This document shows, one piece after another, positions 4,839 to 60,290 of a stretch of DNA of 64,000 bases. The stretch's first letter is position 1; each line of letters opens with the position of its first letter. The DNA comes from Tubulanus polymorphus (taxonomy: Eukaryota; Nemertea; Palaeonemertea; Tubulaniformes; Tubulanidae): positions 18,184,650 through 18,248,649 of the forward strand of contig NC_134026.1 of the NCBI RefSeq assembly GCF_964204645.1, in the 5' to 3' direction. The position numbers and the translations under genes were made by a program. A model generated the notes under the pieces. That model had not been told where the DNA came from and ran no database searches. It worked only from the letters and a program-made list of their open reading frames with translations.

Positions 4839-6580
4839 AGGGTTAGGGGGTTAGGGTTTAGTGTTTAGAGGGTTAGGGTTTAGTGTTAAGAGGGTTAGTG
4901 TTCAGAGGGTTAGTGTTTAGAGGGTTAGGGTTTAGTGTTTAGAGGTTTAGGTTTTAGAGGGTTAGGGTTTAGGGGGCTAGGGTTTAGTGTTTAGAGGTTT
5001 AGGTTTTAGAGGGTTAGGGTTTAGGGGGCTAGGGTTTAGTGTTTAGAGGGTTAGGGTTTAGTGTTTAGAGGGTTAGGGTTTAGTGTTTATAGGGTTAGGT
5101 TTTAGAGGGTTTGGGTTTAGGGTTTACGGGGTTAGGTTTTAGAGGGTTAGGGTTTAGGGGGCTAGGGTTAGGGGTCTAGGGTTTAGTGTTCAGGGATTAG
5201 AAAGTTAGATTTTAGCGGGTTTTAGTGTTCAGAGGGTTAGGGTTTAGGGGGTTAAGGTTTAGTGTTTAGCGGGTTAGGTTTCAATGGGGGTTTAGGGATA
5301 AGGTTTTAGAGAGAATTTAGAGGGTTTAGTGTTTAGAGAGTTAGGGTTTAGTGTTTATAGGGTTAGGTTTTAGAGGGTTTACGGTTTACGGGGTTAGGTT
5401 TTAGAGGGTTAGGGTTTAGGGTTTACGGGGTTAGGGGTTTAGGTTTTAGAGGGTTAGGGTTTAGGGGGCTAAGGTTTAGGGGACTAGGGTTTAGTGTTAA
5501 GAGGGTTAGGGTTTAGTGTTTGGAGGTTTAGGTTTTAGAGGGTTAGGGTTTAGGGGGCTAGGGTTTAGTGTTTAGAGGGTTAGGGTTTAGTGTTTAGAGG
5601 GTTAGGGTTTAGTGTTTTTACGGGGTTAGGTTTTAGAGGGTTAGGGTTTAGGGTTTACGGGGTTAGGGGGTTAGGGTTAGGGTTTAGTGATTAGAGGGTT
5701 AGGGTTTAGGGGGCTAGGGCTTAGGGGGCTAGGGTTTAGTGTTCAGGGATTAGAGAGTTAGATTTTAGCGGGTTTTAGTGTTCAGATGGTTAGGGTTTAG
5801 AGGGTTAGGGTTTAGTGTTTAGCGGGTTAGGTTTCAATGGGGGTTTAGGGATAAGGTTTTAGAGAGAATTTAGAGGGTTTAGTGTTTAGAGGGTTAGGGT
5901 TTAGTGTTTATAGGGTTAGGTTTTAGAGGGTTTAGGGTTTACAGGGTTAGGTTTTAGAGGGTTAGGGTTTACGGGGTTAGGGGTTTAGGTTTTAGAGGGT
6001 TAGGTTTTAGGGGGCTAGGGTTTAGTGTTTAGAGGGTTAGGGTTTAGTGATTAGAGGGTTAGGGTTTAGTGTTTAGAGGTTTAGGTTTTAGAGGGTTAGG
6101 GTTTAGAGGCTAGGGTTTAGTGTTTTGAGGGTTAGGGTTTAGTGATAAGAGGGTTAGGGTTTAGGGGTTTAGGTTTTAGATGGTTAGGGTTTAGTGTTTA
6201 GCGGGTTAGGTTTCAATGGGGGTTTAGGGATAAGGTTTTAGAGAGAATTTAGAGGGTTTAGTGTTAGAGGGTTAGGGTTTAGTGTTTATAGGGTTAGGTT
6301 TTAGAGGGTTTAGGGTTTCCGGGGTTAGGTTTTAGAGGGTTAGGGTTTACGGGGTTAGGGGTTTAGGTTTTAGAGGGTTAGGGTTTAGGGGCCTAAGGTT
6401 TAGGGGACTAGGGTTTAGTGTTAAGAGGGTTAGGGTTTAGTGTTTAGAGGTTTAGGTTTTAGAGGGTTAGGGTTTAGGGGGCTAGGGTTTAGTGTTTAGA
6501 GGGTTAGGGTTGAGTGATTAGAGGGTTAAGGTTTAGGGGTTAGTGTGTAGGGGGTTAGTGTTTAGTGTTTAGAGGGTAAG
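4839..6580. repeat. Degenerate telomere-like satellite (TTAGGG/TTTAGGG)
   Basis: About 1.74 kb built from GGGTTAGGG, GGGTTTAG, GTGTTTAGA and close variants, always G-rich on the plus strand. Higher-order repetition is visible: a block containing TTTCAATGGGGGTTTAGG recurs near 5277, 5830 and 6207. Perfect (TTAGGG)n runs are absent, so this is an interstitial or subtelomeric satellite, not a functional telomere end. Confidence 0.85.
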
Positions 6581-7566: not shown

Positions 7567-8312
7567 GACCATTTATTCTGGAACGATCCGGAAATTTCTG
7601 GAAAAGCAATTCTAATTTATTCTGGAACGATCCGGAAATTTCTGGAAAAATAATTCTGATTTTTCCGGAATTCCGCGGTACCCCCCCCCCCCCCCTCCGT
7701 GCCGATCAGCTTTCTGGATAGATCCGGAAATTTCTGGAAAAGCAATTCTAATTTATTCTGGAACGATCCGGAAATTTCTGGAAAAATAATTCTGATTTTT
7801 CCGGAATTCCGCGGTACCCCCCCTCCCTCCGTGCCGGTCAGCTTTCTGGATAGATCCGGAAATTTCTGGAAAAGCAATTCTAATTTATTCTGGAACGATC
7901 CGGAAATTTCTGGAAAAATAATTCTGATTTTTCCGGAATTCCGCGGTACCCCCCCCCCCCCCTCCGTGCCGGTCAGCTTTCTGGATAGATCCGGAAATTT
8001 CTGGAAAAGCAATTCTAATTTATTCTGGAACGATCCGGAAATTTCTGGAAAAATAATTCTGATTTTTCCGGAATTCCGCGGTACCCCCCCCCCCCTCCGT
8101 GCCGTTCAGCTTTCTGGGAAGATCCGGAAATTTCTGGAAAAGCAATTCTAATTTATTCTGGAACGATCCGGAAATTTCTGGAAAAATAATTCCGATTTTC
8201 CGGAATTCCGCGGCATCCCCCCCCCCCCTCCGTGCCGTTACGAGATCAGCTTTCTGGATAGATCCGGAAATTTCTGGAAAAGCAATTCTAATTTATTCTG
8301 GAACGATCCGGA
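7567..8312. repeat. Minisatellite with ~133-bp units and poly-C runs
   Basis: Five to six head-to-tail units. Each contains GATCCGGAAATTTCTGGAAA twice, a CCGGAATTCCGCGG palindrome and a C run of variable length before TCCGTGCCG. The anchor CAGCTTTCTGG recurs at about 7708, 7838, 7971, 8105 and 8247. Long ORFs on both strands here are a by-product of the repetition. Confidence 0.85.
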
Positions 8313-8330
8313 AATAGTCAGAAAAACGAT

Positions 8331-16501: not shown

Positions 16502-17915
16502 CCCCAGGGATGTTAATATGCCAGATAATGTCCAGTTAAGGTCCCCAGGGTTGTTAATGCAGATATCAACTTCAGGGATGTAAATATGCCAGATAATGTT
16601 CATTTAAGGTCCCCAGGGTTGTTAATATAAATATCAACTTCAGGGATGTAAATATGCCAGATAATGTCCATTTAAGGTCCCAGGGTTGTTAATGTAAATA
16701 TCAACCCCCAGGGATGTAAATATACCAGATAATGTCCAGGTAAGGTCCCCAGGGTTGTTAATGTAAATATCAACTTCAGGGATGTTAATATGCCAGATAA
16801 TGTCCAGTTAAGGTCCCCAGGGTTGTTAATGTAAATATCAACCCCCAGGGATGTAAATATACCAGATAATGTCCAGGTAAGGTCCCAGGGTTGTTAATGT
16901 AAATATCAACCCCCAGGGATGTAAATATACCAGATAATGTCCAGGTAAGGTCCCCAGGGTTGTTAATGTAAATATCAACTTCAGGGATGTTAATATGCCA
17001 GATAATGTCCAGTTAAGGTCCCCAGGGTTGTTAATGCAGATATCAACCCCAGGGATGTTAATATGCCAGATAATGTCCAGTTAAGGTCCCCAGGGTTGTT
17101 AATGCAGATATCAACCCCAGGGATGTTAATATGCCAGATAATGTCCAGTTAAGGTCCCCAGAATGGTTAATGTAAATATCAACCCCCAGGGATGTAAATA
17201 TGCCAGATAATGTCCAGTTAAGGTCCCCAGGGTTGTTAATGCAGATATCAACCCCAGGGATGTTAATATGCCAGATAATGTCCAGTTAAGGTCCCCAGAA
17301 TTGTTAATGTAAATATCAACTTCAGGGATGTTAATATGCCAGATAATGTCCAGTTAAGGTCCCCAGGGTTGTTAATGCAGATATCAACCCCAGGGATGTT
17401 AATATGCCAGATAATGTCCAGTTAAGGTCCCCAGAATTGTTAATGTAAATATCAACTTCAGGGATGTTAATATGCCAGATAATGTCCAGTTAAGGTCCCC
17501 AGGGTTGTTAATGCAGATATCAACCCCAGGGATGTTAATATGCCAGATAATGTCCAGTTAAGGTCCCCAGAATTGTTAATGTAAATATCAACTTCAGGGA
17601 TGTTAATATGCCAGATAATGTCCAGTTAAGGTCCCCAGGGTTGTTAATGTAAATATCAACTTCAGGGATGTTAATATGCCAGATAATGTCCAGTTAAGGT
17701 CCCCAGGGTTGTTAATGTAAATATCAACTACAGGGATGTTAATATGCCAGATAATGTCCAGTTAAGGTCCCCAGGGTTGTTAATGCAGATATCAGCCCTG
17801 GGGATGTTAATATGCCAGATAATGTCCAGTTAAGGTCCCTAGGGTTGTTAATGCAGATATCAGCCCCAGGTATGTAAATATGCCAGATAATGTCCAGTCA
17901 AAGTTCCCAGGGTTG
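16502..17915. repeat. Minisatellite, about 21 copies of a 68-bp unit
   Basis: The unit is CAGGGATGTTAATATGCC / AGATAATGTCCAGTTAAGG / TCCCCAGGGTTGTTAATG / (T or C)A(A or G)ATATCAAC. GATAATGTCCA recurs every ~68 bp from 16523 to 17884. Two variants, one with ATCAACTTCAGGG and one with ATCAACCCCAGGG, alternate in blocks, suggesting growth by multi-unit duplication. Degenerate unit traces continue to about 18120. Confidence 0.9.
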
Positions 17916-17926
17916 TAAAAATTTAT

Positions 17927-23900: not shown

Positions 23901-25317
23901 CCAGTCATCCTGGCTCGACTCCATCCTGGCTCGACTCAATTACGAGCGTTAACTCCGACAACAGGGTACGATGAAACCTTTCTACGAGACCGTCGGACTG
24001 CGGGTGGTAAGCTGTAGTGCGAGTTTGCTGGATCGCCAACAGTCTGCACACTTCCCTAAATAACTTCGACATAAAGTTGCTCCCTTGATCAGAATGCAGA
24101 AACTCAGGAATACCCAGTCGAGCAAAGAACTCCCGCGTCAATAAATCGGCAATGGTTGACGCCTCTTTATTGGGAATAGGGAAGGCCTCCACCCACTTGG
24201 TGAAATAATCGGCTACTACCAACACGGCCACATTCCCACGTTCCGTTTCCCGCTTCTTGACTATATAGAGCAACCCATCTGACATCAAAAGAGACTTCCA
24301 CCTCGCACAACTTGACGGCCTGACTTACCGCAGATCTCCCTCGCATCAGGAGAAGAGCCCGACTTAAATACAGTAATCAACCATTGGAATTCAGGATCAC
24401 TCGCCTGAGCAGCTCTTTCTGAAGCTGCGACGGCAGACACGAGAAAGCGCGTCAGCATTCCCATGATTACGCCCCGGTCTGTGCTCAATTTCATAATCGT
24501 AACTATCGATGACTGATATCCAACTCGCAACTTGTCCCTCAGGTTCCTTAAACGACGTAAGCCAACGTAAGGAGGCGTGATCAGTTCTCAACCTAAACTT
24601 CCGCCCCCACAAGTAATGAAGGAAGTGTTTCATGAATGTGACTACAGCTAGCAATTTACGACGAGTGACACAGTAATTGCGCTCATCCTTCGACAACGAT
24701 TTACTGGCATATGATATGACCCTCTCCATACTATCCTGAACTTGTGACAACACGCCACCAATTCCAGAGGCGCTGGCGTCCGTGTCAAGAATAAACTGCA
24801 ATTCCGGACGAGGATATGCCAACACCGGAGCAGATATCAGGCATTCCTTCAGTTTACTGAATGCTTCTTGACACGCTGGTGTCCAAACACGCATGATTCT
24901 TCTCTGTTAGCCGATGCAGGGGCTTGGCAATAGTAGCGAACCCTGGACAAAACGACCTATAATATGATGCCAATCCAATGAACGATCTCACAGCTGTGAC
25001 GCAGTCGGGTATCGGCCAAACCCTAACGGCACTTATCTTTTCAATATCACAAGATATTCTGGATTCCGACACGACATGACCTAGGTATCGAACTGACTAG
25101 CGAAAAAAGTCGCACTTCTTTGGCTTAAGTTTCAAGCCGGTTTTCCTAAATCGCTTGAATACAGCACGCAGATTCTCAATGGTAGAGTCTAAACTCTTTC
25201 CGAACACGATGACATCGTCCAGGTAGACGAGACATATTTCATACTGGAGACACGATAACACGTTCTCCATCAGCCGCTCGAAAGTGGAGCTGGCATTACA
25301 CAGGCATTTGATTTAAT
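23890..25317 (-). mobile_element. Gypsy element A, 3' half of pol (end of RT, RNase H, integrase)
   Basis: Minus-strand Ty3/Gypsy pol in fragments. Right to left: NASSTFERLM of the RT palm (about 25280), PKKCDFF then an in-frame TAG near 25105, RT thumb (SFIGLASYYRSFCPGFA, 24900-25070), RNase H (FILDTDASASGIGGVLSQ to HGNADALSR, 24440-24890), and an integrase core (VVADYFTKWVEAFP, LHSDQGSNFMS, HPQSDGLVERFH; 23930-24290) with D, D and E present. The integrase zinc domain is missing or scrambled between 24290 and 24420. The integrase ends after ESSQD, where a 16-bp tandem duplication and then the DUF7869-like gene take over. Non-functional. Confidence 0.8.
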
Positions 25318-30689: not shown

Positions 30690-31005
30690 CAAGTTTAAAC
30701 ATGGATCTAAAAGACCTCTCACGGTTGTTTGTTATGGTGGAAGGATTACGGAAAGTGATATCCTATCAGCCCTGGGATCTAAATCAGTTCGAGTGCGTGC
30801 GATTCAAATCACAAAAACTGGTGAGTGTAGAATAACGTTCAAGGACACGAGTGCAGATGAGGATTTCATAAAAAATCCACCGAACATAAAAGACCGCACG
30901 TTAAAAGTTAATAAAGCTGACGATGTACAAGATGTTACGAACGTTACAATTAAAGATGCACCAGTTGAACTATCAGATGCGTTCATTGCCTCCCAATTAT
31001 CGACA
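30690..31005 (+). pseudogene. LINE-type gag-like ORF1, N-terminal half (interrupted)
   Basis: The open frame begins near 30690 (KRPLTVVCYGGRITESDILS) and includes GECRITFKDTSADEDFIKN and NVTIKDAPVELSD. It parallels the minus-strand ORF at 59704-60285 residue for residue. It ends at ASQLST, exactly at the 8-bp target duplication of the palindromic element. The second half resumes at 35138. ORF1 proteins of this type are RNA-binding partners of non-LTR retrotransposons. No EN/RT ORF of this copy is present. Confidence 0.7.
30998..31005. repeat. Target-site duplication, left copy
   Basis: TATCGACA, repeated exactly at 35138-35145. Removing the element and one copy restores an unbroken codon series (TTA TCG ACA TAC GGT) in the host ORF1. 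Confidence 0.9.
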
Positions 31006-31188
31006 GTAATAGGGATAATAGGCTTTCAGGCCAAAGGTCGAACGGTCGAGCTCATAAAAAATGAAAAATATGAAAATAATAACAATTTCTACTTGAATTA
31101 GTCGCGAAACTCATAAAAAATGAAAAATAATTCTCACGCTCGAATTTATTTTTCATTTTTACTCGCTAGAAAAAAGTGTGAGTAAAGT

Positions 31189-31890
31189 GTGAGTGAAATA
31201 ATTCATAAATCATTGAATATTTATATTTATATGCGTTGGATTCATTTTAATAAAAGTTTTGTTATTAAAATGAAGACAGAAGAAGAAGAACCCAACTTTA
31301 AAATCGAAATAAAAGAAACCAATAAATCATTTTCATTATTTAACATTAAAAATTATATTTCAGCAACAAATTTAGTGTCCGCAAGGTATTATAAAATTTA
31401 TGACATTACTATGATTAATCAAATATCATCAAATGAAACATATTTAATTACTAAACTAATTGATACTTTTGATAATGGTGTTAAAAATCCTAAATTGTTC
31501 AATACAGTTTTGAATTTTAAAGGAACTTTAGATGAAAACATAATTAATATACTTCAAACCCCTTTCAATGAAAGAAATGATGATATAATACTTTCAAAAG
31601 ATTACAATGACTTGATTAACTTAAGAATTGAAAAAAGACAATTATATTATTTCAATTTTGATAATAAACAAATTATCTATAATGAAAATTCATCAAATAT
31701 TGGAATTCAATGTGAATTAGATAATGAAAAATCATTTAAAGATATTGCAGTTCAATGTAATTTAGATGATGAATTTAGAAAATTCAATCCTAATGAAAAA
31801 GTGCATTGTTATTGCGGAGGTAAATATTTAAAATCACATAAATCAAAGCATTATGAAACAATTAAACATAAAAACTGGCGTAAAGAGTAA
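31189..31890 (+). CDS. Palindrome arm gene, left copy: protein with C-terminal Cys/His motif
   Basis: The frame is open for 233 codons from a GTG at 31189. Likely starts are ATG at 31231 or, better, ATG at 31270 (MKTEEEEPN), giving about 206 residues. The body is rich in Asn, Ile, Lys, Asp and Glu. Near residues 168-195 a phrase is repeated: GIQCELD then AVQCNLD. The last ~28 residues form a zinc-finger-like C-x-C-x(11)-H-x3-H-x5-H motif (CYCGGKY...HYETIKH). Similar CGGKY-type C-termini occur in proteins of some large mobile elements and viruses of protists and animals; I cannot name the family. It lies wholly within the inverted arm, so both copies evolve as a pair. Confidence 0.65.
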   Translation: MSEIIHKSLNIYIYMRWIHFNKSFVIKMKTEEEEPNFKIEIKETNKSFSLFNIKNYISATNLVSARYYKIYDITMINQISSNETYLITKLIDTFDNGVKNPKLFNTVLNFKGTLDENIINILQTPFNERNDDIILSKDYNDLINLRIEKRQLYYFNFDNKQIIYNENSSNIGIQCELDNEKSFKDIAVQCNLDDEFRKFNPNEKVHCYCGGKYLKSHKSKHYETIKHKNWRKE

Positions 31891-31950
31891 CAATTCTACA
31901 TTATAATTATTGAATTGAGTTAAATGATTTAAATACCTAATAGACTGTTA

Positions 31951-32357
31951 AAATGATAAATTGTTTGACAGTTGAAATGATAAATTGTTTGACAGTTGAA
32001 ATGATAAATTGTTTGACAGTTGAAATGATAAATTGTTTGACAGTTGAAATGTTAAATTGTTTGACAGTTGAAATGATAAATTGTTTGACAGTTGAAATGA
32101 TAAATTGTTTGACAGTTGAAATGATAAATTGTTTTACAGTTGAAATGATAAATTGTTTGACAGTTAAAATGATAAATTGTTTGACAGTTGAAATGATAAA
32201 TTGTTTGACAGTTGAAATGATAAATTGTTTGACAGTTGAAATGATAAATTGTTTGACAGTTGAAATGATAAATTGTTTGACAGTTGAAATGATAAATTGT
32301 TTGACAGTTGAAATGATAAATTGTTTGACAGTTGAAATGTTAAATTGTTTGACAGTT
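31951..32357 (+). repeat. 24-bp repeat array, left
   Basis: About 17 units of GTTGAAATGATAAATTGTTTGACA (24 bp). Because 24 is a multiple of 3, all copies share frames: plus strand reads MINCLTVE repeated, minus strand reads QFIISTVK repeated, with no stop either way. Variants (ATGTTAAA, GTTTTACAG) are sparse. Confidence 0.9.
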
Positions 32358-32468
32358 ACAATCCTTACTGATATTTTCATAATAAAAGAAAAGCGCAGCC
32401 AATATTAATCCACCTGCTACTAAATAATGTTTCAAATCACTTTTCCCAGTTGGGATGAAACCATCCAT
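32340..32468 (-). CDS. Possible 42-aa single-pass membrane protein in the palindrome centre
   Basis: ATG at 32468 to TAA at 32340. A short polar N-terminus (MDGFIPTGKSDLK) precedes a hydrophobic span HYLVAGGLILAALFFYY, then an acidic/Cys tail ENISKDCNCQTI whose last codons lie in the first 24-bp repeat. The typical membrane-span length and clear polarity argue against chance. Small one-span proteins are common in viruses and virus-derived elements. Weak because of its size. Confidence 0.4.
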   Translation of the reverse strand: MDGFIPTGKSDLKHYLVAGGLILAALFFYYENISKDCNCQTI

Positions 32469-32587
32469 TTATTTAAGAGAAAAAATTAAACAGTTAATAA
32501 AATATTTGCTAGTTTTTAATTAAATATTTTATAATCATTTTAAAAATATTAAACTTTTAAATGATTAAATCAAATAACAATTAAATT
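32358..32587. other. Unique centre of the palindrome
   Basis: The only part without an inverted partner. It holds the start of the 42-aa ORF and an AT-rich stretch (32470-32587) with no other gene. Confidence 0.6.
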
Positions 32588-34190
32588 TACAGCCAAACAA
32601 TTTAACATTTCAACTGTCAAACAATTTATCATTTCAACTGTCAAACAATTTATCATTTCAACTGTCAAACAATTTATCATTTCAACTCTCAAACAATTTA
32701 TCATTTCAACTCTCAAACAATTTATCATTTCAACTCTCAAACAATTTATCATTTCAACTGTCTTATCATTTCAACTGTCAAACAATTTATCATTTCAACT
32801 GTCAAACAATTTATCATTTCAACTGTCAAACAATTTATCATTTCAACTGTCAAACAATTTATCATTTCAACTGTCAAACAATTTATCATTTCAACTGTCA
32901 AACAATTTATCATTTCAACTGTCTTATCATTTCAACAGTCGAACAATTTATCATTTCAACTGTCAAACAATTTATCATTTCAACTCTCAAACAATTTATC
33001 ATTTCAACTGTCAAACAATTTATCATTTCAACTGTCAAACCATTTATCATTTCAACTGTCAAACAATTTATCATTTCAACTGTCAAACAATTTATCATTT
33101 CAACTGTCAAACAATTTATCATTTCAACTGTCAAACAATTTATCATTTCAACTGTCTTATCATTTCAACAGTCGAACAATTTATCATTTCAACTGTCAAA
33201 CAATTTATCATTTCAACTCTCAAACAATTTATCATTTCAACTGTCAAACAATTTATCATTTCAACTGTCAAACAATTTATCATTTCAACTGTCAAACCAT
33301 TTATCATTTCAACTGTCAAACAATTTATCATTTCAACTGTCTTATCATTTCAACTGTCAAAGAATTTATCATTTCAACTGTCAAACAATTTATCATTTCA
33401 ACTGTCAAACAATTTATCATTTCAACTGTCAAATAATTTATCATTTCAACTGTCAAATAATTTATCATTTCAACTGTCAAACAATTTATCGTTTCAACTG
33501 TCAACCAATTTATCATTTCAACTGTCAAACAATTTATCATTTCAACTGACTAACAATTTAACATTTCAACTGTCAAACAATTTATCATTTCAACTGTCAA
33601 CCAATTTATCATTTCAACTGTCAAACAATTTATCATTTCAACTGTCAAAAAATTTATCATTTCAACTGTCAAACAATTTAACATTTCAACTGTCAAACAA
33701 TTTAACATTTCAACTGTCAAACAATTTATCATTTCAACTGTCAAACAATTTATCATTTCAACTGTCAAACAATTTATCATTTCAACTGTCAAACAATTTA
33801 TCATTTCAACTGTCAAACAATTTATCATTTCAACTGTCAAACAATTTATCATTTCAACTGTCAAACAATTTAACATTTCAACTGTCAAACAATTTAACAT
33901 TTCAACTGTCAAACAATTTATCATTTCAACTGTCAAACAATTTATCATTTCAACTGTCAAACAATTTATCAATTCAACTGTCAAACAATTTATCATTTCA
34001 ACTGTCAAACAATTTATCATTTCAACGGTCAAACAATTTATCATTTCAACTGTCAAACAATTTATCATTTCAACTGTCAAACAATTTATCATTTCAACTG
34101 TCAAACAATTTATCATTTCAACTGTCAAACAATTTATCATTTCAACCGTCAAACAATTTATCATTTCAACCGTCAAACAATTTATCATTT
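32588..34190 (-). repeat. 24-bp repeat array, right (inverted, longer)
   Basis: About 65 units of the same 24-bp repeat as at 31951, in opposite orientation. Internal higher-order structure is present: a shortened unit (CAACTGTCTTATCATTTCAA, losing 10-15 bp) recurs near 32760, 32920, 33155 and 33340. It splits the otherwise continuous frame into separate MINCLTVE-repeat ORFs. Confidence 0.9.
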
Positions 34191-34250
34191 TAACAGTCTA
34201 TTAGATATTTAAATCATTTAACTCAATTCAATAATTATAATGTAGAATTG

Positions 34251-34952
34251 TTACTCTTTACGCCAGTTTTTATGTTTTATTGTTTCATAATGCTTTGATT
34301 TATGTGATTTTAAATATTTACCTCCGCAATAACAATGCACTTTTTCATTAGGATTGAATTTTCTAAATTCATCATCTAAATTACATTGAACTGCAATATC
34401 TTTAAATGATTTTTCATTATCTAATTCACATTGAATTCCAATATTTGATGAATTTTCATTATAGATAATTAGTTTATTATCAAAATTGAAATAATATAAT
34501 TGTCTTTTTTCAATTCTTAAGTTAATCAAATCATTGTAATCTTTTGAAAGTATTATATCATCATTTCTTTCATTGAAAGGGGTTTGAAGTATATCAATTA
34601 TGTTTTCATCTAAAGTTCCTTTAAAATTTAAAACTGTATTGAACAATTTAGGATTTTTAACACCATTATCAAAAGTATCAATTAGTTTAGTAATTAAATA
34701 TGTTTCATTTGATGATATTTGATTAATCATAGTAATGTCATAAATTTTATAATACCTTGCGGACACTAAATTTGTTGCTGAAATATAATTTTTAATGTTA
34801 AATAATGAAAATGATTTATTGGTTTCTTTTATTTCGATTTTAAAGTTGGGTTCTTCTTCTTCTGTCTTCATTTTAATAACAAAACTTTTATTAAAATGAA
34901 TCCAACGCATATAAATATAAATATTCAATGATTTATGAATTATTTCACTCAC
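34251..34952 (-). CDS. Palindrome arm gene, right copy
   Basis: Mirror copy of the gene at 31189-31890, also intact for 233 codons. Only two residue differences are visible: Asn to Asp in NIIxILQ and Gln to Leu in DNKxIIY. The likely start (MKTEEEEPN) is at 34871. Both copies being intact points to recent origin, gene conversion between arms, or selection. Confidence 0.65.
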   Translation of the reverse strand: MSEIIHKSLNIYIYMRWIHFNKSFVIKMKTEEEEPNFKIEIKETNKSFSLFNIKNYISATNLVSARYYKIYDITMINQISSNETYLITKLIDTFDNGVKNPKLFNTVLNFKGTLDENIIDILQTPFNERNDDIILSKDYNDLINLRIEKRQLYYFNFDNKLIIYNENSSNIGIQCELDNEKSFKDIAVQCNLDDEFRKFNPNEKVHCYCGGKYLKSHKSKHYETIKHKNWRKE

Positions 34953-35137
34953 ACTTTACTCACACTTTTTTCTAACGCGTAAAAATGAAAAATAAATTCG
35001 AGCGTGTGAGAATTATTTTTCATTTTTTATGAGTTTCGCGACTAATTCAAGTAGAAATTGTTATTATTTTCATATTTTTCATTTTTTATGTGCTCGACCG
35101 TTCGACCTTTGGCCTGAAAGCCTATTATCCCTATTAC

Positions 35138-35145
35138 TATCGACA
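35138..35145. repeat. Target-site duplication, right copy
   Basis: TATCGACA, identical to 30998-31005. Confidence 0.9.
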
Positions 35146-36381: not shown

Positions 36382-39300
36382 TTAAGCACAATCAAAACAG
36401 AATAGCATGAATGATCCCGCTGGATCTTCGTCGTTAATCCATCCTTTGATTTTATCCCGAGCTGCTCGAGCAGCTGAACGTTTTGGACGATCCGGGAATA
36501 TCACGCTTTTTTCCTGTGGTACAGGTACATTAGACGCATTCGGAGGATCCGGGTATATGTTGTCTCGTTTCGCTACAGCTACATCTGACCCCATTGGTAA
36601 GTAAATTCCATTTTTGTCCAACTGTAGACCCAAATCGGTTTTCAACTTATTTTTCAAATTTTTCTGTACTGCATTGATGACTTCAGGGAATGCCGATTTC
36701 TGGATAAACTTATCCCATCTCAGTTTGGCTTCTTCAATCAAATGTATGTTCAAACATTCTTCACCGACATGTTCTTTTTTCATCATCTTAAACAGTTTCA
36801 GAATCCATGCTGTTACTCTGAGTAACTTTATAAAGGAGGAGAATTTCTTCATATTCACTTCACATGGACCAATAAACTCAACGCTCAGGAGAGGGGTGCC
36901 CTCCCCAGCCACCAATTCTCCTTCTATTTCTTTAGTAAGAATCATTTCTTGCTCATGTACTTCATCGGCAGATTTATTCCATACCGGCCATTTATTTTCT
37001 TTCATAACAAATTCTGGACCATTCCACCAGATTTTTCTATTCATTTCTTCAACAGTGCATGGTCGAGTCGCAATATCTGCTGGATTTGATGCGCTTTCGA
37101 CATAGTGCCACTGTACAGCTTGGTGTTTTCTAATTTCTTTCAGACGATTTTCGATGAAGACAGGCTGTTTCTTCCTCGACTTGATCCAATTCAACACACA
37201 CTGTGAATCCGTCCACAAATGAGTTTCATCTATTAGGGTTGGTAGTTCGTTCGTCACATAATTTAAACATCTCACGCCAATCAGCACAGCCATTAGTTCC
37301 ATTCTTGGTATGGTACAACCTTTTTTCGGAGCTAACCTCGATTTGGCAAATATCAGATTGACTTTCTGTTCAGTAAAACTCTCAACCTTCAGGTATACAA
37401 GTGTTGAATAAGCTCTATCTGACGCATCACAGAAACATAACAGTAGGTACCTCAATGGATCTTTAACTCCCATATATCTGGGTACCCTCACAGTAGAAAT
37501 CAAGTCTAATTGCCTTTCAATCCTCATCCACACAGATCTCTGTTCTTCAGTCAAATCATCATCCCAACCTTTTTCTTTCAACCATAACTCTTGAATCAAC
37601 AATTTTCCTCCAAGAATCACTGGGGAAAATAGTCCAAGCGGATCAAAATGAGATGACAATCTCATCAATATTTGACGTTTGGTATTTACAATATTTCTTT
37701 CTTTCATTTCTTTTTTCATGGATGGGATACTGAGTTCATCTCGTTTTCTATCCCATGTTACACCAAGGACCTTCATAACCACATCATTCTGTTCATGATC
37801 CTCCTTGAGTACGTTCTTCATAAATTCACTATCATTTGATGCATAACATCTCAGATTCATTCCCATCTGATTAAAACTTTTCTTCGATTCTTCGTAGAAT
37901 GTCTCTTTTCCACTGTCGATACTAACAACCATGTTGTCGACATACATATTTTTTCGCATTTTTTCTGCTACAGCACTATTCTCAGTTCGTAAGTGATGAT
38001 CAATTACAGCTGATAATAGGAATGGGCTTGAAATAACACCGAATGGTACTCTACAGAAGCGGTATGTCTGTATGTTTTCTGCTACACATGGTCCATCCAC
38101 ATCTTTCAGCCAAAGGAATCTTGTCACGTCACGCTGACTTTCATGCAGTGAGATTTGTAGGAAGGCTTTTTCAACATCAGCCACAATTGCCACTTTATGA
38201 ATCCTAAATCTCATCAGTAGACCACATAAGTCAGACAGTAACACAGGACCGCGGTACAGACATTCATTTAAACTCTTGTTCTCTCTTGTCCTCTTACACG
38301 ACGCATCAAAAACGACTCGCACTTTAGTTGTCGTTTTCTGAGGTGTCATCACCGCATGATGTGGGATGTAGTGTATTTGGTTGTCTGTTGGTTTATCTTC
38401 AACCTTTTCGATGATATTCTTTTTTTCCTGATCTTCAAATATGGCTTGATATTGAGTCAGAAAATCTTTTGATGCACTCAGTTTCTTCATCAGTGATTTC
38501 AGTCTGTAGAAGGCGATATCCTTATTCTCTGGTAAATTCAACCATAAGTCTTCGATCCATGGCCACCGAACCATGTAACGACCATCTTCAAAACTTATGG
38601 AGGCTTGAAATTTTTCTAACGCCTTGTCGTCACTAGATATCTTTATTTCTTCAGTTATACCAATTGCATCCAAGTCCCACAATCTTTCCACATGAGGGTT
38701 GGTGGCTGCCAATGCCATATCAGCCTTGGTATAAGAATGGAGGTTCGCAACCTCCTCCTCAGCATATGTCAAGATTAGCATACCAGGGTTTTGTTTCACA
38801 TCTATCGCACTTTCACTTACTGATCTTCCTGACAATAACCACCCCAATTTAGATTCAACCAAGAACAAGTTTTCTTCTACCTGTATCTTCCTCTGTTGTA
38901 CCAGGTTCAAATAATAATCGTTACCAACCAACAAATCTACTTCAAATGTTTTTTGAGTCTTTGGTAAAGTATCAGCCAGTGACATCTCTTGGTCTGACAA
39001 TATGACTTCTATTCTCTCTATCGTCTCAGGTCGAACGGGATTTTGATGAAGTTTACCCGTTATCATGGGTATTATGGTAATATGTAACGTCATCAAGCTA
39101 CCATCATTCAGTCTAATTTGCAAATATGATAACTTCCCATTGAGATATTTTGGTGTATTCGACCCAAACGTGTTGACAGGAATGTATTCTATTGCATACC
39201 AAGACAGCTTCAAACTTTTTGCTTTCAAGCTAGACATATACGTCCGATAGCTTCCAGTGTCGAATACTAGTCGACCATCAACTTTGTTTTTGGTTACCGG

Positions 39301-40700
39301 ATTCATCATGGATACCGTGGCTGTCTGCATACATACAAGTGGTCTGCCTACACCTGTAGCTACCATACTGAAATTCATTGTCAACATCCCGGATTCAGCT
39401 TCAGCTCCCCGTAGACTTGAACTCTGACTCGATTCAGCTACGCTACCACTAGCTGACGTAAACAAATTCGGACAAATGCTACGATGATGGTCTTTCCTCA
39501 CACCACAGTGTGCGCATAACCGGTTTACCATACATCTATCTTTTCTGTGACCCTTTTTCAGGCAAATATGGCAAACAGCCTTCAATTTCTTCTTCCGACC
39601 TTCAATTGTTGAAAATTTCGTGCACTCATCCGACCAATGGGAGTCAGTACAATAGAAACAGCGTGGAGAGTAACCACCGATGGCGCCTGTGGCAGCTAAC
39701 GTAGCCGACGGTGTATGTTGTCTTTTCTGATAATTGGTGAACTTGAAATTCGATCTCTGGTATTGGTGCTCATTGGGTTTAACCCTGCCAGTTGAACCAT
39801 CATTCTGGTTCCTCTCCGCAACTTCTCGTGCCGAGATATAATTATCGAGTGATTCTCGAAGTGACTTCACCGTCCACTTTTCGTCTTTTTCTTTCTGGAT
39901 TTCAATTGTTACCAAACATGCTTTGGGTAATTTGGACATGATAATCGATACGAAGACACTTTGATTAACGTCTTGTTTTAAGACCTCTAATGACCGTAAA
40001 TGTCTCTCAATATTGTCAAGAAGTTGACGTAGTTTTGCCGTTTGATTTGTTGACACTGGTAACTCGATGAGATTTACATAGTGCGCATTTATTAGCACTT
40101 GGGTATCCCCAAATCTTTCACAAAGCAGTTTAACTGCCACTTCATAATTGGCATTGGAGATCGTCAGACCAGCAATAGCATCTAGGGCTTCTCCAGTCAA
40201 CAAACTTTTCAAGTATGTCATCTTCTCCACATCGGATAGGTTTTCATTTTTATGTATCGATGTCTCAAAATGATCCCAAAATTCTTGATACTGCATGATA
40301 TCGCCCGAAAATTTAGCAATACTCAATTTGGGCAGACTGACAGATGTACTTTTTTCTTTACTAGTTGACGCCTTCTTCATACCAGTACTGTCTTCTGCTA
40401 CCGTCAATTGAGCCATGGCTTCCGTTGCCATAGCAATTATATCAGTGTCTTCCTCGTCGAAAGACGCCATAACTTTTTCTTCCTTCTTTCTTTCAGTATC
40501 CTCAACGATTGAATCAACAGACTCTGCCAATTCATCCAGGGCTCTTTCAAATTTTGAAAGATAATTTCCTATTAATATTTTGAGTGTGGCAACTTTTTTC
40601 CGTAGCTCACTCACGTCATCCTTTTTCGCTTCAGCTTCAGCCAACAACGACCTCTTTTTTTCAACCTCTTTTTTTATGAGGTTCATATACCTAGGTTCAT
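36382..40700 (-). mobile_element. BEL/Pao retrotransposon gag-pol lacking the integrase core
   Basis: The frame is uninterrupted to 40764; its first ~20 codons come from the antisense of the adjacent LINE, so the element proper starts near MNLIKKEVEKKR (about 40690). Domains by residue of the 1,460-aa frame: coiled N-terminus; DUF1759-type Gag (about 145-305); zinc knuckles (370-430: CFYC, CHIC, CAHC series); DUF1758-type protease (DTGSYRTYMSS, ~505); RT (VVFDASCKRTRENKS ~818 to MYVDN ~940, the BEL-type YVDN active site); Pao-type RNase H (LWTDSQCVLNW, ~1190). The start of the integrase region (LGLQLDKNGIY) then joins directly to the C-terminal tail (LPMGSDVAVAKRD), so the DDE core is deleted in frame. 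The 5' LTR and leader are missing. Not autonomous, but the preserved frame implies a recent copy or mobilisation in trans. Confidence 0.85.
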
Positions 40701-41449
40701 ATGGAAAAAAGACTAAATTTTGACGACGACATAACTGATCATCAATCATGTGAGGACATATCACATTCCACAGTTAAAACTCCTACTCATACTCAGTCTG
40801 CCGTCACTGACATGTCACCTGCAGAGAGCCGCACCGCTAGCTCGACAATTGTGCCCCCGAAACATATTATTATGGGTGACTCGAACTGCTCTCGCCTGAT
40901 GTTTACAGATATTCCGGAAAGCGTTCACGTGTGCAGCCTTTCGGGTGCAACGGCCCATGATGTAAATAAACTTCTCCAGAAAGTGGACCCGTCTATTGAA
41001 AATGCGAAAATAAAATCGATAATCTGCCATCTAGGGACCAACGACATGACTCGAAACAAAGATGATCATGACCAAACAATCCTGGATTTGTCAAAATGAT
41101 AAATATCCTTCGAAATACATTTCCCAGCGCTCAAATTAATGTATCTAGTATACTACCGCGTAAAGGAAAATGTAAGACTGCGCTAACCTACAATGACACT
41201 TCCTCAAAGATCAATAACTATCTTCGAAAGCTATGTGACAGTGAAAATCATTTGAACTATATAGACAATGACTTGGTATTCCAACCAAATTTTTTAGTTA
41301 ACCAGTCGTTATTTGATTCAACTGATAGGTCAGGAATCCATATTGGAATCGATGGTGCCAAAGAACTTACACAAGTCTTTCTTCGTGCATTGACACCGGA
41401 TCAGAATAAAAAAACGAACCAGAAGTCAGACATCATCATCCGATATTAG
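40701..41449 (+). pseudogene. LINE A ORF1: SGNH esterase-like protein, frameshifted
   Basis: 40701-41099 carries IIMGDSNCSRLMF (block I, GDSN with the catalytic Ser) and CHLGTNDM (block III, GTND). A one-base shift at about 41096 separates it from 41096-41449, which has VSSILPRKG and DRSGIHIG (block V, Asp-x-x-His with x = S/G). Such esterase ORF1s occur in CR1/L2 LINEs and are thought to aid membrane or RNP interactions. Copy B (51226-51816, minus) confirms the order without that break. Confidence 0.75.
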
Positions 41450-41519: not shown

Positions 41520-44379
41520 TAATGCTACCTACTAACGAGTATTATCTACCCTATACTTATTCATCATCGACATCTTTAATAATAACAAATGTCAATACTT
41601 TGATGTACACTCTATTGTAGAGTTTGAAAAGCAACATTTTTCAATCTGTGCTTTATAAAACATTCGTAGTTGTAACAGAAATTTTGATACATTTTCATAT
41701 TTTTTTAGCAATTTAAAAACTGACTTTTCTATTTTCGGGTTAACCGAAACCTGGACTAGCGAACTTCATGATAATGTCAGGCTGTACAATCTCCCAGGTA
41801 TGAAAAGTGTTTTTAAGTGTAGAAAAAAATTGTCAGGGAGAAGGTTTGGCCCTATTTTTCAAAGAAAGTTTTAATGTGAAACTTAGACCAGATCTATCCG
41901 AGGATAGAAATACTTTTGAATGTCTATTTATTGAATTGATTCTTGAAAAAGAGAAAAATAAATTAATTGGTCTGATCTATCGACCACCCGGACAAAGCAT
42001 AAATGGCTTTAATAATGAATTAATTCCACTTTTAGCAAAATTTAATAGAGAAGACAAAGTATGCTATCTTATGGGCGATTTCAATATCGATTTACTACAA
42101 GTTAACGCCCACAGACCAACTGATAACTATTTAGAAAATATGACTTCATTTGGGTTCATTCCATTAGTTGATAAACCTACAAGAATCACTCCCACATCCT
42201 CGACGCTTATAGATAATATTTTTTGTAACGATATTCGCCATGTGTTTAGTACGGGTATTATTTGTACCGATATTTCGGATCATTTTCCAATTTTTACTGT
42301 CTGTAATCACGTTGAGCCCAAAATTGACCAAGAGGTGACTTCGAACAGGAACTATTGTGAACGTAACATTTCAAAATTCAATAGAGCTCTTCTGGCCACT
42401 AATTGGTGTCGGATATCTATAGTAATGCAGACCCGCAACTCTCATACAGCGCATTTAACACTAAATTCATGGAATTATATAATGAATGTTTTCCTTTTTC
42501 AACTTCCCGTAAAATAAACGAAAATAGATTACATAAACCGTGGTTATCATCTGGTTTATTGAAATGTATTAAACACAAAAATCGCTTGTACAGAAAATCT
42601 TTGCGTAATAGATCACATTTGAAAAATTATTTGAATTACAAACGTACCTTGTCTCGTACACTCAAATATGCCGAGAAAAAGTATTATGAGACTAAATTAC
42701 TTGCAGCCAAATCCGATATGAAAAAATCATGGAATATCTTAAACAGTCTAATTGGAAAATCTTCCAATGATCGGAGTAGATTACCTTGCTCTTTCAAAAG
42801 GAACGGTATCATTGTAAACGGCTATGAAAATATCGCTAATGAATTTAATTCTTTCTTTGTAAATATTGGTAGCAACCTAGCCAATCAAATACCAGATACA
42901 GGTGTCCACTTCAGTGAATATCTGACAGATCCAGTAAATTAAAACTTTTTCTTTTTCCCGACCCACCCTGATGAAATCAGTCAGATTGTAAATGATTTCT
43001 CACCCAGCAAAGGCGCTGGTGCTGATGGTTTCTCTGTAAAAGTAGTTAAGAAAATAATTGATTCTGTAAAATACCCGCTAACTCATATATTTAACTGTAG
43101 CTTAAATTCCGGTATAGTGAACTGAAGGTAGCGCGAATACGTCCACTCTATAAAGCTGGCAATAATGACTCTTTTGATAATTACAGACCGATATCCGTAC
43201 TGCCTTGCTACTCTAAAATTCTCGAAAAGATAGTGTATAATCGATTAACCGAATATTGTAACAAGTTTCACATCATTCAACCAAACCAGTTCGGCTTTCG
43301 AAAGAACCATTCAACTGCCATGGCCTTAACATTGATAACTGATGAAATTTCACTAAATTTAGAAGAAAACAAATCAACTATTGGGGTATTCTTAGATTTA
43401 CTAAAAGCCTTTGACACCGTTGATCACGAAATCTTATTAAGAAAATTATGTTTTTATGGAATAAGAGGCATCTCTAACAACTGGTTTGAAAACTATTTGA
43501 AGTATAGAAAACAATTTGTTCAAATTCAAAATTATAACTCCTCGTTATGTACCGTTAAAACTGGAGTACCCCAAGGCTCAATTTTAGGTCCCTTGCTTTT
43601 TTTATTATATGTAAACGACTGTATTAAATTTTCTAATGTGTTAAAACTTATATTGTTTGCCGATGACACAGTGCCTTTTATAGTGACATTAATTTAGACA
43701 GATTAGTACGTACAGTAAACATTGAATTATCAAAATTGTATACCTGGTTTCAAACAAACAAGCTGTCATTAAATGTAAAGAAGACGTCATTTATGGTGTT
43801 CGGTAAACTATTGAAACATAACTTGAGAATATCAATTAACAACATAGGGATCAAACAAGTCAATGTCACAAATTTTCTTGGAGTTTTTATTGACAGAAAT
43901 CTAACCTGGGACGATCAAATAAAATCAGTTGAAAAAAAAGTTTCTCGAAGCATTGGTATAATAAATAGAGTAAGATATAAGCTGCCAGTGAGTTCTCTTC
44001 GTACCCTTTATTTGTCGCTTATTGATCCTTACCTCCAGTATTGTAACTTAGTTTGGGGACGAAATTTTGAAAATGAACTTCAGCCATTAATTGTATTGAA
44101 AAAAGAGCTATCAGGCTAATTTCTAATTCCTATTATTTGGCGCACACTGACCCTATATTCAAATCGTTTAATATCCTCAAGCTCAAAGATATTAATACAC
44201 TTCAGCTAGGTAGTTTTATCTACAGATCTGTCCATTCCGAATTACCGAAATCATTCGAAAATTATTGGAGCCAAAATTTTCAAATCCACAGTCACAATAC
44301 TCGGCGACGTCAAGATTTACAAACACTTTCTTTCAATAGTCTAAGAAGAAAATTTTCAGTAAAAGTATCCGGCCCTTAA
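41520..44379 (+). pseudogene. LINE A ORF2: endonuclease-reverse transcriptase, frameshifted
   Basis: Endonuclease pieces: SIFGLTETWT (~41740), GLIYRPPG, YLMGDFNIDLL and ISDHFPIFT (41807-42330). A linker (42400-42940) follows. The RT has RPISVLPCYSKILEK (about 43190), GVFLDLLKAFDTVDHEILL, GVPQGSILGPLLFLLYVND and LFADDT (43230-43690), then the thumb and C-terminus to 44379. At least four frame changes are needed (near 41800, 42400, 42950-43130 and 43690). Active-site FADD is present. Reverse transcription of its own RNA is the family role; this copy cannot do it. Confidence 0.8.
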
Positions 44380-59705: not shown

Positions 59706-60290
59706 AATTGTAATTGTCTATATCGTAATTCAATCGTTTTTGAATTTTTCGAATTTTTGGGCATTCAGATTTTTTGTGACCATCTTCACGACAATGATAA
59801 CAAATTATGCCGTACGGACAATCATAAGCCATATGATCAGCTGATTTACACTTGAAACAAAGTTTTCTAGTTTTCAGTAAACATCTGAAATACGGGTGAT
59901 CAGTGTCACCGCAATGTTTGCACTGTGTTTTGTTATTGTCGCAAAAAAGTCTTACTTCAAATCTTCCAAACTTAGTCTCCACGGGTATAATGTTTTTTAC
60001 GTTTGACAGTTTTGCATAGATAGATCCGTTTAAAATTTCGGTGTCTTTAATTTTGCCTCTTCGCAGTGAACCGGTTACTACGTTGCCATACTTTTGTAGC
60101 TGATTAATAATGAACATATCCGAAAGCTCAACCGGCGCGTCTTTAATAGTTATGTTCGTTATATCAATCAATTCGTCAACTTTGCACGCTTTAATTTGAC
60201 GATTTCTGATCTTTATACCACTTTTAATGAAGTTTTCCATAGCTTCCAAATTGTAAAAAGTAATTCTGCACTCACCATTCTTCAAAAACT
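59704..60290 (-). pseudogene. Gag-like ORF1 of another LINE, second copy
   Basis: Intact for 193 codons: GECRITFYNLEAMENFIKSG, NITIKDAPVELSDMF, KFGRFEVRLFC, then knuckles CKHCGDTDHPYFRC, CFKCKSADHMAYDC and CYHCREDGHKKSEC. It lacks the N-terminus seen in the copy at 30690 (sequence similarity stops at about 60297). No EN/RT follows on its strand because LINE 2 lies there. It provides the template for recognising the split copy at 30690-35606. Confidence 0.7.

Follow-up and report, generated by a model that had tools for sequence, protein, structure and literature searches.

Polinton or Maverick elements generate a 6-bp target duplication and carry AGT.../...ACT ends (PMC8097293), they encode a type B polymerase (PMC6431247), and replication via a protein-primed single-stranded intermediate has been suggested for them (PMC4061559). 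Here, we analyse a palindromic element of 4,134 bp that lies at 31005..35138 (not assigned to either strand) of a 64,000-nt stretch of contig NC_134026.1 of the nemertean Tubulanus polymorphus (assembly GCF_964204645.1, positions 18,184,650 to 18,248,649 of the forward strand); this whole stretch is called the window. The element, whose ends are AGTAATAGGG...CCCTATTACT, is a real, multicopy, palindromic Polinton/Maverick derivative. It shares with these elements the 6-bp duplication, the end motif and long inverted repeats at the termini (its arms), its relatives have the type B polymerase, and six of nine equal-ended terminus pairs (16.1-19.0 kb) match the full Polinton size of ~15-20 kb. In contrast to a Polinton, the window copy is 4.1 kb long, palindromic and polymerase-free, with 24-bp arrays inside its arms, and many termini of the present family are themselves palindromic. 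Because of the termini, the 6-bp duplications and the polymerase-bearing relatives, we read it as a non-autonomous Polinton/Maverick derivative and not as the new class of fold-back transposon that the original prediction, made from the letters alone, had put forward. We consider it likely that this palindromic derivative of a genome-abundant family was formed by snap-back copying and inserted in trans. No Polinton/Maverick described as non-autonomous or Maverick-derived was found under those names in the open PMC literature, subscription papers and repeat databases lying outside this scope.

The palindrome is as near to perfect as had been predicted. Its left arm (31005..31950, +), which comprises the terminus, ORF A and the start of a satellite, and its right arm (34190..35138, -) are about 945 bp long and, aligned inversely, they are identical at 951 of 961 positions with a single 2-bp gap. 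The mirror match extends past the arms into the satellite, reaching 1,355 bp (98.45% identity), and the self-mirroring part makes up 81% of the element. Each inverted arm does contain the gene that had been noticed there, an open reading frame (ORF) of 219 aa here named ORF A (first copy 31231..31890, +; second copy 34251..34910, -, 99% identical to the first), and the repeat arrays described within the arms are two convergent arrays of a 24-bp satellite, with 17.3 copies on the left (31943..32357, +) and 68.0 copies on the right (32594..34198, -); exact copies of the 24-bp core word in the window number 15 and 46, one count per strand. Some 230 unique bases had been assigned to the middle. 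The length holds, ~236 bp separating the two arrays, but the uniqueness does not, since the centre carries the beginning of ORF C (MDGFIPTG..., 32356..32468, -), a small gene present in relatives, where it has 65-72 aa and a hydrophobic segment. ORF A, the 24-bp array and this start of ORF C are the gene content that the window copy has retained; the polymerase and the Rep-like gene described below are absent from it. The end TAATAGGGATAATAGG (31007-31022) is like part of the I-SceI site, a likeness that we take to be due to chance.

At the insertion site, one point of the original prediction needs correction. The repeat TATCGACA is indeed found on both sides, as first reported, and was then taken for an exact target duplication of 8 bp. 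It looks so long because the neighbouring T and A add to the element's own terminal A and T; comparison with the ends of other copies and the joined flanks delimit the true duplication as the 6-bp ATCGAC (30999..31004 and 35139..35144, without strand), and an 8-bp duplication was rejected because the other delimited copies show 6 bp. Twelve copies were delimited, namely the window element and 11 more from 20 genome stretches, the copy on contig C5 taking two stretches; loci L021, L023, L024, L031, L032, L033 and L035 stand outside the duplication count. An exact 6-bp duplication is present in 10 of the 12 (the window and 9 of the 11 others), with ten different 6-mers, and it is imperfect in L036 (5/6 bp) and L025 (1/6 bp). 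All delimited copies have AGTAATAGGG-type ends (5'-AG...CT-3' type), one end of L025 being mismatched. At L034, a duplication of at least 4 bp was looked for and none was found. Removal of the element restores a gag-like frame, as had been claimed: the joined window flanks give a single open frame over the junction (386-862 of the joined sequence, junction at 804), and an insert-free paralogue of the interrupted ORF at 59844..60183 (-) is 68% identical over the junction, with small alignment gaps only.

Copies elsewhere in the genome, for which the original prediction had proposed to look, are numerous: in the 267.8-Mb assembly (77 contigs), ORF A has at least 159 matches (150 scored of 701 candidates), often as inverted pairs a few kb apart. 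In the half-unit, the terminus is outermost and is followed by ORF A, which has 214-219 aa. The next slot is taken by a 758-aa Rep-like ORF in some copies and by the 24-bp array in others. Further inwards come ORF C, the zinc-finger-like ORF D (100-103 aa; its C2H2 matches fall below the cut-off), short tandem repeats and, innermost, a short hairpin. Comparison of the window with L022 and L049 shows that the 24-bp satellite replaces the Rep-like gene in the slot that separates ORF A from ORF C: in these two loci the Rep-like gene is present and the core word is missing, whereas the array was counted in the window and nine other loci. A second inverted copy of the terminus lies within the first in four of the 12 delimited copies (L020, L030, L036 and the C5 copy); the window and seven others lack it, and we therefore do not regard its absence from the window arms as telling. 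Nor do we hold that the palindromes generally centre on a common hairpin, because only L025 and the 6.84-kb core of L049 have it at the dyad. Two copies deserve separate mention. The C5 copy (C5:12915867-12926996, stretches L017 and L018) is 11.1 kb long, with a 165-bp tandem array and a 923-aa DUF1280 frame that is probably a nested insertion and was set aside. Also, C14:177799-181996 on a small contig and C2:17704721-17708918 on a chromosome, with opposite orientation and identical spacing, seem to be one palindromic copy, perhaps a haplotype copy.

What does ORF A encode? Its C-terminus has what we take to be a zinc-finger-like motif. Outside this genome, no homologues were found at E<=0.001 with a single-sequence query or at E<=1 with an 8-row alignment query, and against Pfam it gave chance-level matches only. 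Its median dN/dS between elements is 0.36, calculated on open frames only (28 frames from 18 elements, 150 of 153 pairs), which suggests that ORF A was translated and under selection during the spread of the family.

The larger members of the family were approached through their termini. A 19-base end pattern with two degenerate positions occurs 779 times forward and 782 times in reverse, 1,561 in the genome, each palindromic terminus being scored twice; the reversed control gave 0/0. Positions were examined for the first 100 places among the matches listed, all on contig C1, where they form 60 terminus blocks, 40 of them palindromic (184-449 bp). Among consecutive blocks, nine pairs have equally long palindromes and, delimited by termini alone and independently of target duplications, six of these pairs span 16,098-18,988 bp and the remaining three 12,968, 21,833 and 24,077 bp. 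The polymerase fragment that adjoins the L049 core has 1,899 candidates in the genome, of which the 150 scored are 95-100% identical and many lie in ~1,356-aa frames; at L051, a close copy of this fragment, a 725-aa frame matches DNA_pol_B_2 (E=5.2e-16). For three of ten C1 matches, the start of the polymerase as deduced from coordinates falls 278-452 bp inside a listed terminus, which gives three paired elements of ~18-19 kb (C1:14237008-14255995, 16873971-16891901 and 13989088-14007313) with a deduced polymerase start inside one end. Longer relatives with the same ends and a polymerase are what the original prediction had proposed to look for, and its alternative suggestion, that a larger virus-like element had collapsed into an end-to-end form, is the nearest of the earlier readings, being supported in outline by longer elements with the same GTAATAGGG-type end. 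Polymerase remnants are also present in the palindromic copies themselves: both arms of L022 contain them (92.6%), L049 has a polymerase with an internal deletion, the first 51 residues are left in L038 and at the right end of the L049 element, and the first 31 in L042 and L047. This is the anatomy of Polinton/Maverick deletion derivatives.

The packaging-ATPase family PF04665 is also abundant (150 scored of 1,014 candidates). One copy falls within the possibly composite 21.8-kb interval C1:14063817-14085649, in which ORF A sits ~0.6 kb from the right end. Four matches are found 12.3-12.75 kb away from a polymerase start, downstream of it and on the opposite strand. Among the ATPase-polymerase pairs listed at 0-18.5 kb, 6 are downstream and 5 upstream, against a downstream control with a mean of 3.9 and a maximum of 11; the total is not above the control, and therefore only the tight cluster of four is suggestive.

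How could copies mirrored over their full length arise? In L025, the mirror match covers 5,936 of 5,940 bp at 99.7%, and in L019 and L026 it covers the full length at 98%. In 11 of 11 two-armed elements, identity between the two arms (98.7-100%) exceeds that with any other element (93.9-99.0%), and 15 of 16 true pairs are sister in an arm tree from which the two unpaired arms of L033 and, at L030, a fragment of a neighbour were removed; before these exclusions, 14 of 17 loci with at least two arms were monophyletic. We infer snap-back copying as the origin of the palindromes, to which the hairpin shared by the dyads of L025 and L049 also points. A linear parent element would replicate by protein-primed strand displacement, a strand would fold back on itself and be copied into a mirror-image molecule that has termini on both sides, the parent's polymerase would amplify this molecule, and an integrase acting in trans would insert it, creating the 6-bp duplications. 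Since one arm would serve as template for the other in a snap-back cycle, the arms of one copy would match each other better than the arms of other copies. In adenovirus and similar linear DNA viruses, snap-back defective genomes are an inverted duplication of one genome end. The inverted end duplication is alike in both cases, but here the copies are fixed in the genome with target duplications and are known from integrated copies alone.

Several observations weigh against this origin or against the Polinton assignment on which it builds. The hairpin is not at the dyad in all copies, two hairpin copies flanking the dyad in L019, L026 and L029 and the hairpin being off centre in L027, L030, L036 and the C5 copy, and therefore a single fixed turning point cannot explain every copy. 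L023 is the single exception to the sister arms of the tree. Between the arms of the same element, ORF A differs by 8 synonymous and 9 non-synonymous changes, too few and too skewed to be read as neutral. As to the parent, the 225-aa polymerase fragment by the L049 core has itself no polymerase family match, 5 of the 10 C1 polymerase matches have no listed terminus at the deduced start and 2 of the 10 are past the listed stretch, and no rve integrase was found within the paired C1 intervals among 150 scored of 1,412 candidates. The sole capsid-related observation is a 249-aa ORF with a weak DUF5901 match (E 5e-4, below the cut-off), the major capsid protein not having been searched.

The alternative that survives best is compatible with a snap-back origin. 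It holds that the family is a satellite element that borrows the ends and the integrase of Polintons but brings along a replication gene, the 758-aa Rep-like ORF, which the window copy, as a derivative, would have lost. Residues 57-308 of a homologue of this ORF have a middling fold likeness to the Rep_trans (pT181-type) initiators, and its DxD, YxK and RxE motifs are, we assume, in the same order as in Rep_trans; it is a candidate initiator. However, the best Foldseek E of the Rep-like protein is only 0.023 and it matches no family in Pfam or PHROG. Five relatives with 28-52% identity are present in public assemblies, and none was found in viral contigs, in phage records or, by sequence, in the PDB. 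Moreover, the gene comes after polymerase and P113 sequence in L040 and after polymerase fragments in L038, L042 and L047, and therefore it may belong to a Polinton subfamily. On balance we hold a satellite with a replication gene of its own to be possible, with the odds against it.

Somewhat less probable still, in our view, is that a Polinton deletion derivative with long inverted repeats had its arms homogenised after insertion by arm-to-arm gene conversion, the process that keeps the arms of Y-chromosome palindromes alike. It would account for the 98.7-100% likeness of the arms within a copy, would yield the same arm tree, and would accommodate a hairpin that is not always at the dyad. Nevertheless, gene conversion by itself is no source of copies mirrored over their full length.

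A distinct class of fold-back transposon, one that makes 8-bp target duplications and has a transposase to itself, seems to us very improbable. The 8-bp repeat apparent in the window copy and the satellite-bearing inverted repeats would speak for it, given that Foldback, Galileo and TU elements have long inverted repeats with internal tandem repeats; these, however, have other duplication lengths and transposases, and the present family differs from them by its 6-bp duplications and by its Polinton-type ends, which are common to larger polymerase-bearing elements. That the second arm is an assembly artefact, a fold-back chimera, is hardly credible: palindromes are difficult to assemble and the assembly was examined without reads, yet the arms differ by 10 mismatches, a 2-bp gap and arrays of 17 versus 68 copies, the flanks differ while carrying an exact duplication, and the same form recurs at many loci.

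The window contains other repetitive sequences. An open 1,455-aa BEL/Pao retroelement frame occupies 36382-40749 (-), with matches to Peptidase_A17 (1e-47), DUF1759, RVT_1 and DUF1758, and fragments of an integrase core (rve) and a reverse transcriptase at 23905-24285 (-) and 43320-43697 (+) belong to other retroelements. Tandem arrays of 132-bp and 68-bp units lie at 7576-8315 and 16502-17916, and at 4839-6577 there is a degenerate 1.7-kb array whose units are AGGGTTT-like and of telomere type and whose GC skew is extreme.

The interest of the element lies mainly in what it may say about the replication of Polinton/Maverick elements. Members of the Parvoviridae have small linear genomes with hairpin ends. 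We tentatively suggest, while thinking it probably goes too far, that the palindromes could be genomic fossils of polintovirus snap-back defective genomes, that is, self-propagating mirror-image satellites in which accessory genes are retained (ORF A, which would be under purifying selection, and sometimes a Rep-like initiator) and arm identity is renewed in each replication cycle via hairpin ends. The Polinton lineage would then have a hairpin-type, parvovirus-like step besides protein priming. No parvoviral genes were seen in the copies read, no search having been aimed at them. The Bidnaviridae have small linear genomes with a Polinton-derived polymerase, and their ends are said not to form parvoviral hairpins (PMC4061559). 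A family with many integrated mirror-image copies, whose arms can be compared and whose termini are palindromic, would provide evidence from sequence for the Polinton DNA intermediate, and would mean that virus-like transposons possess defective derivatives of their own.

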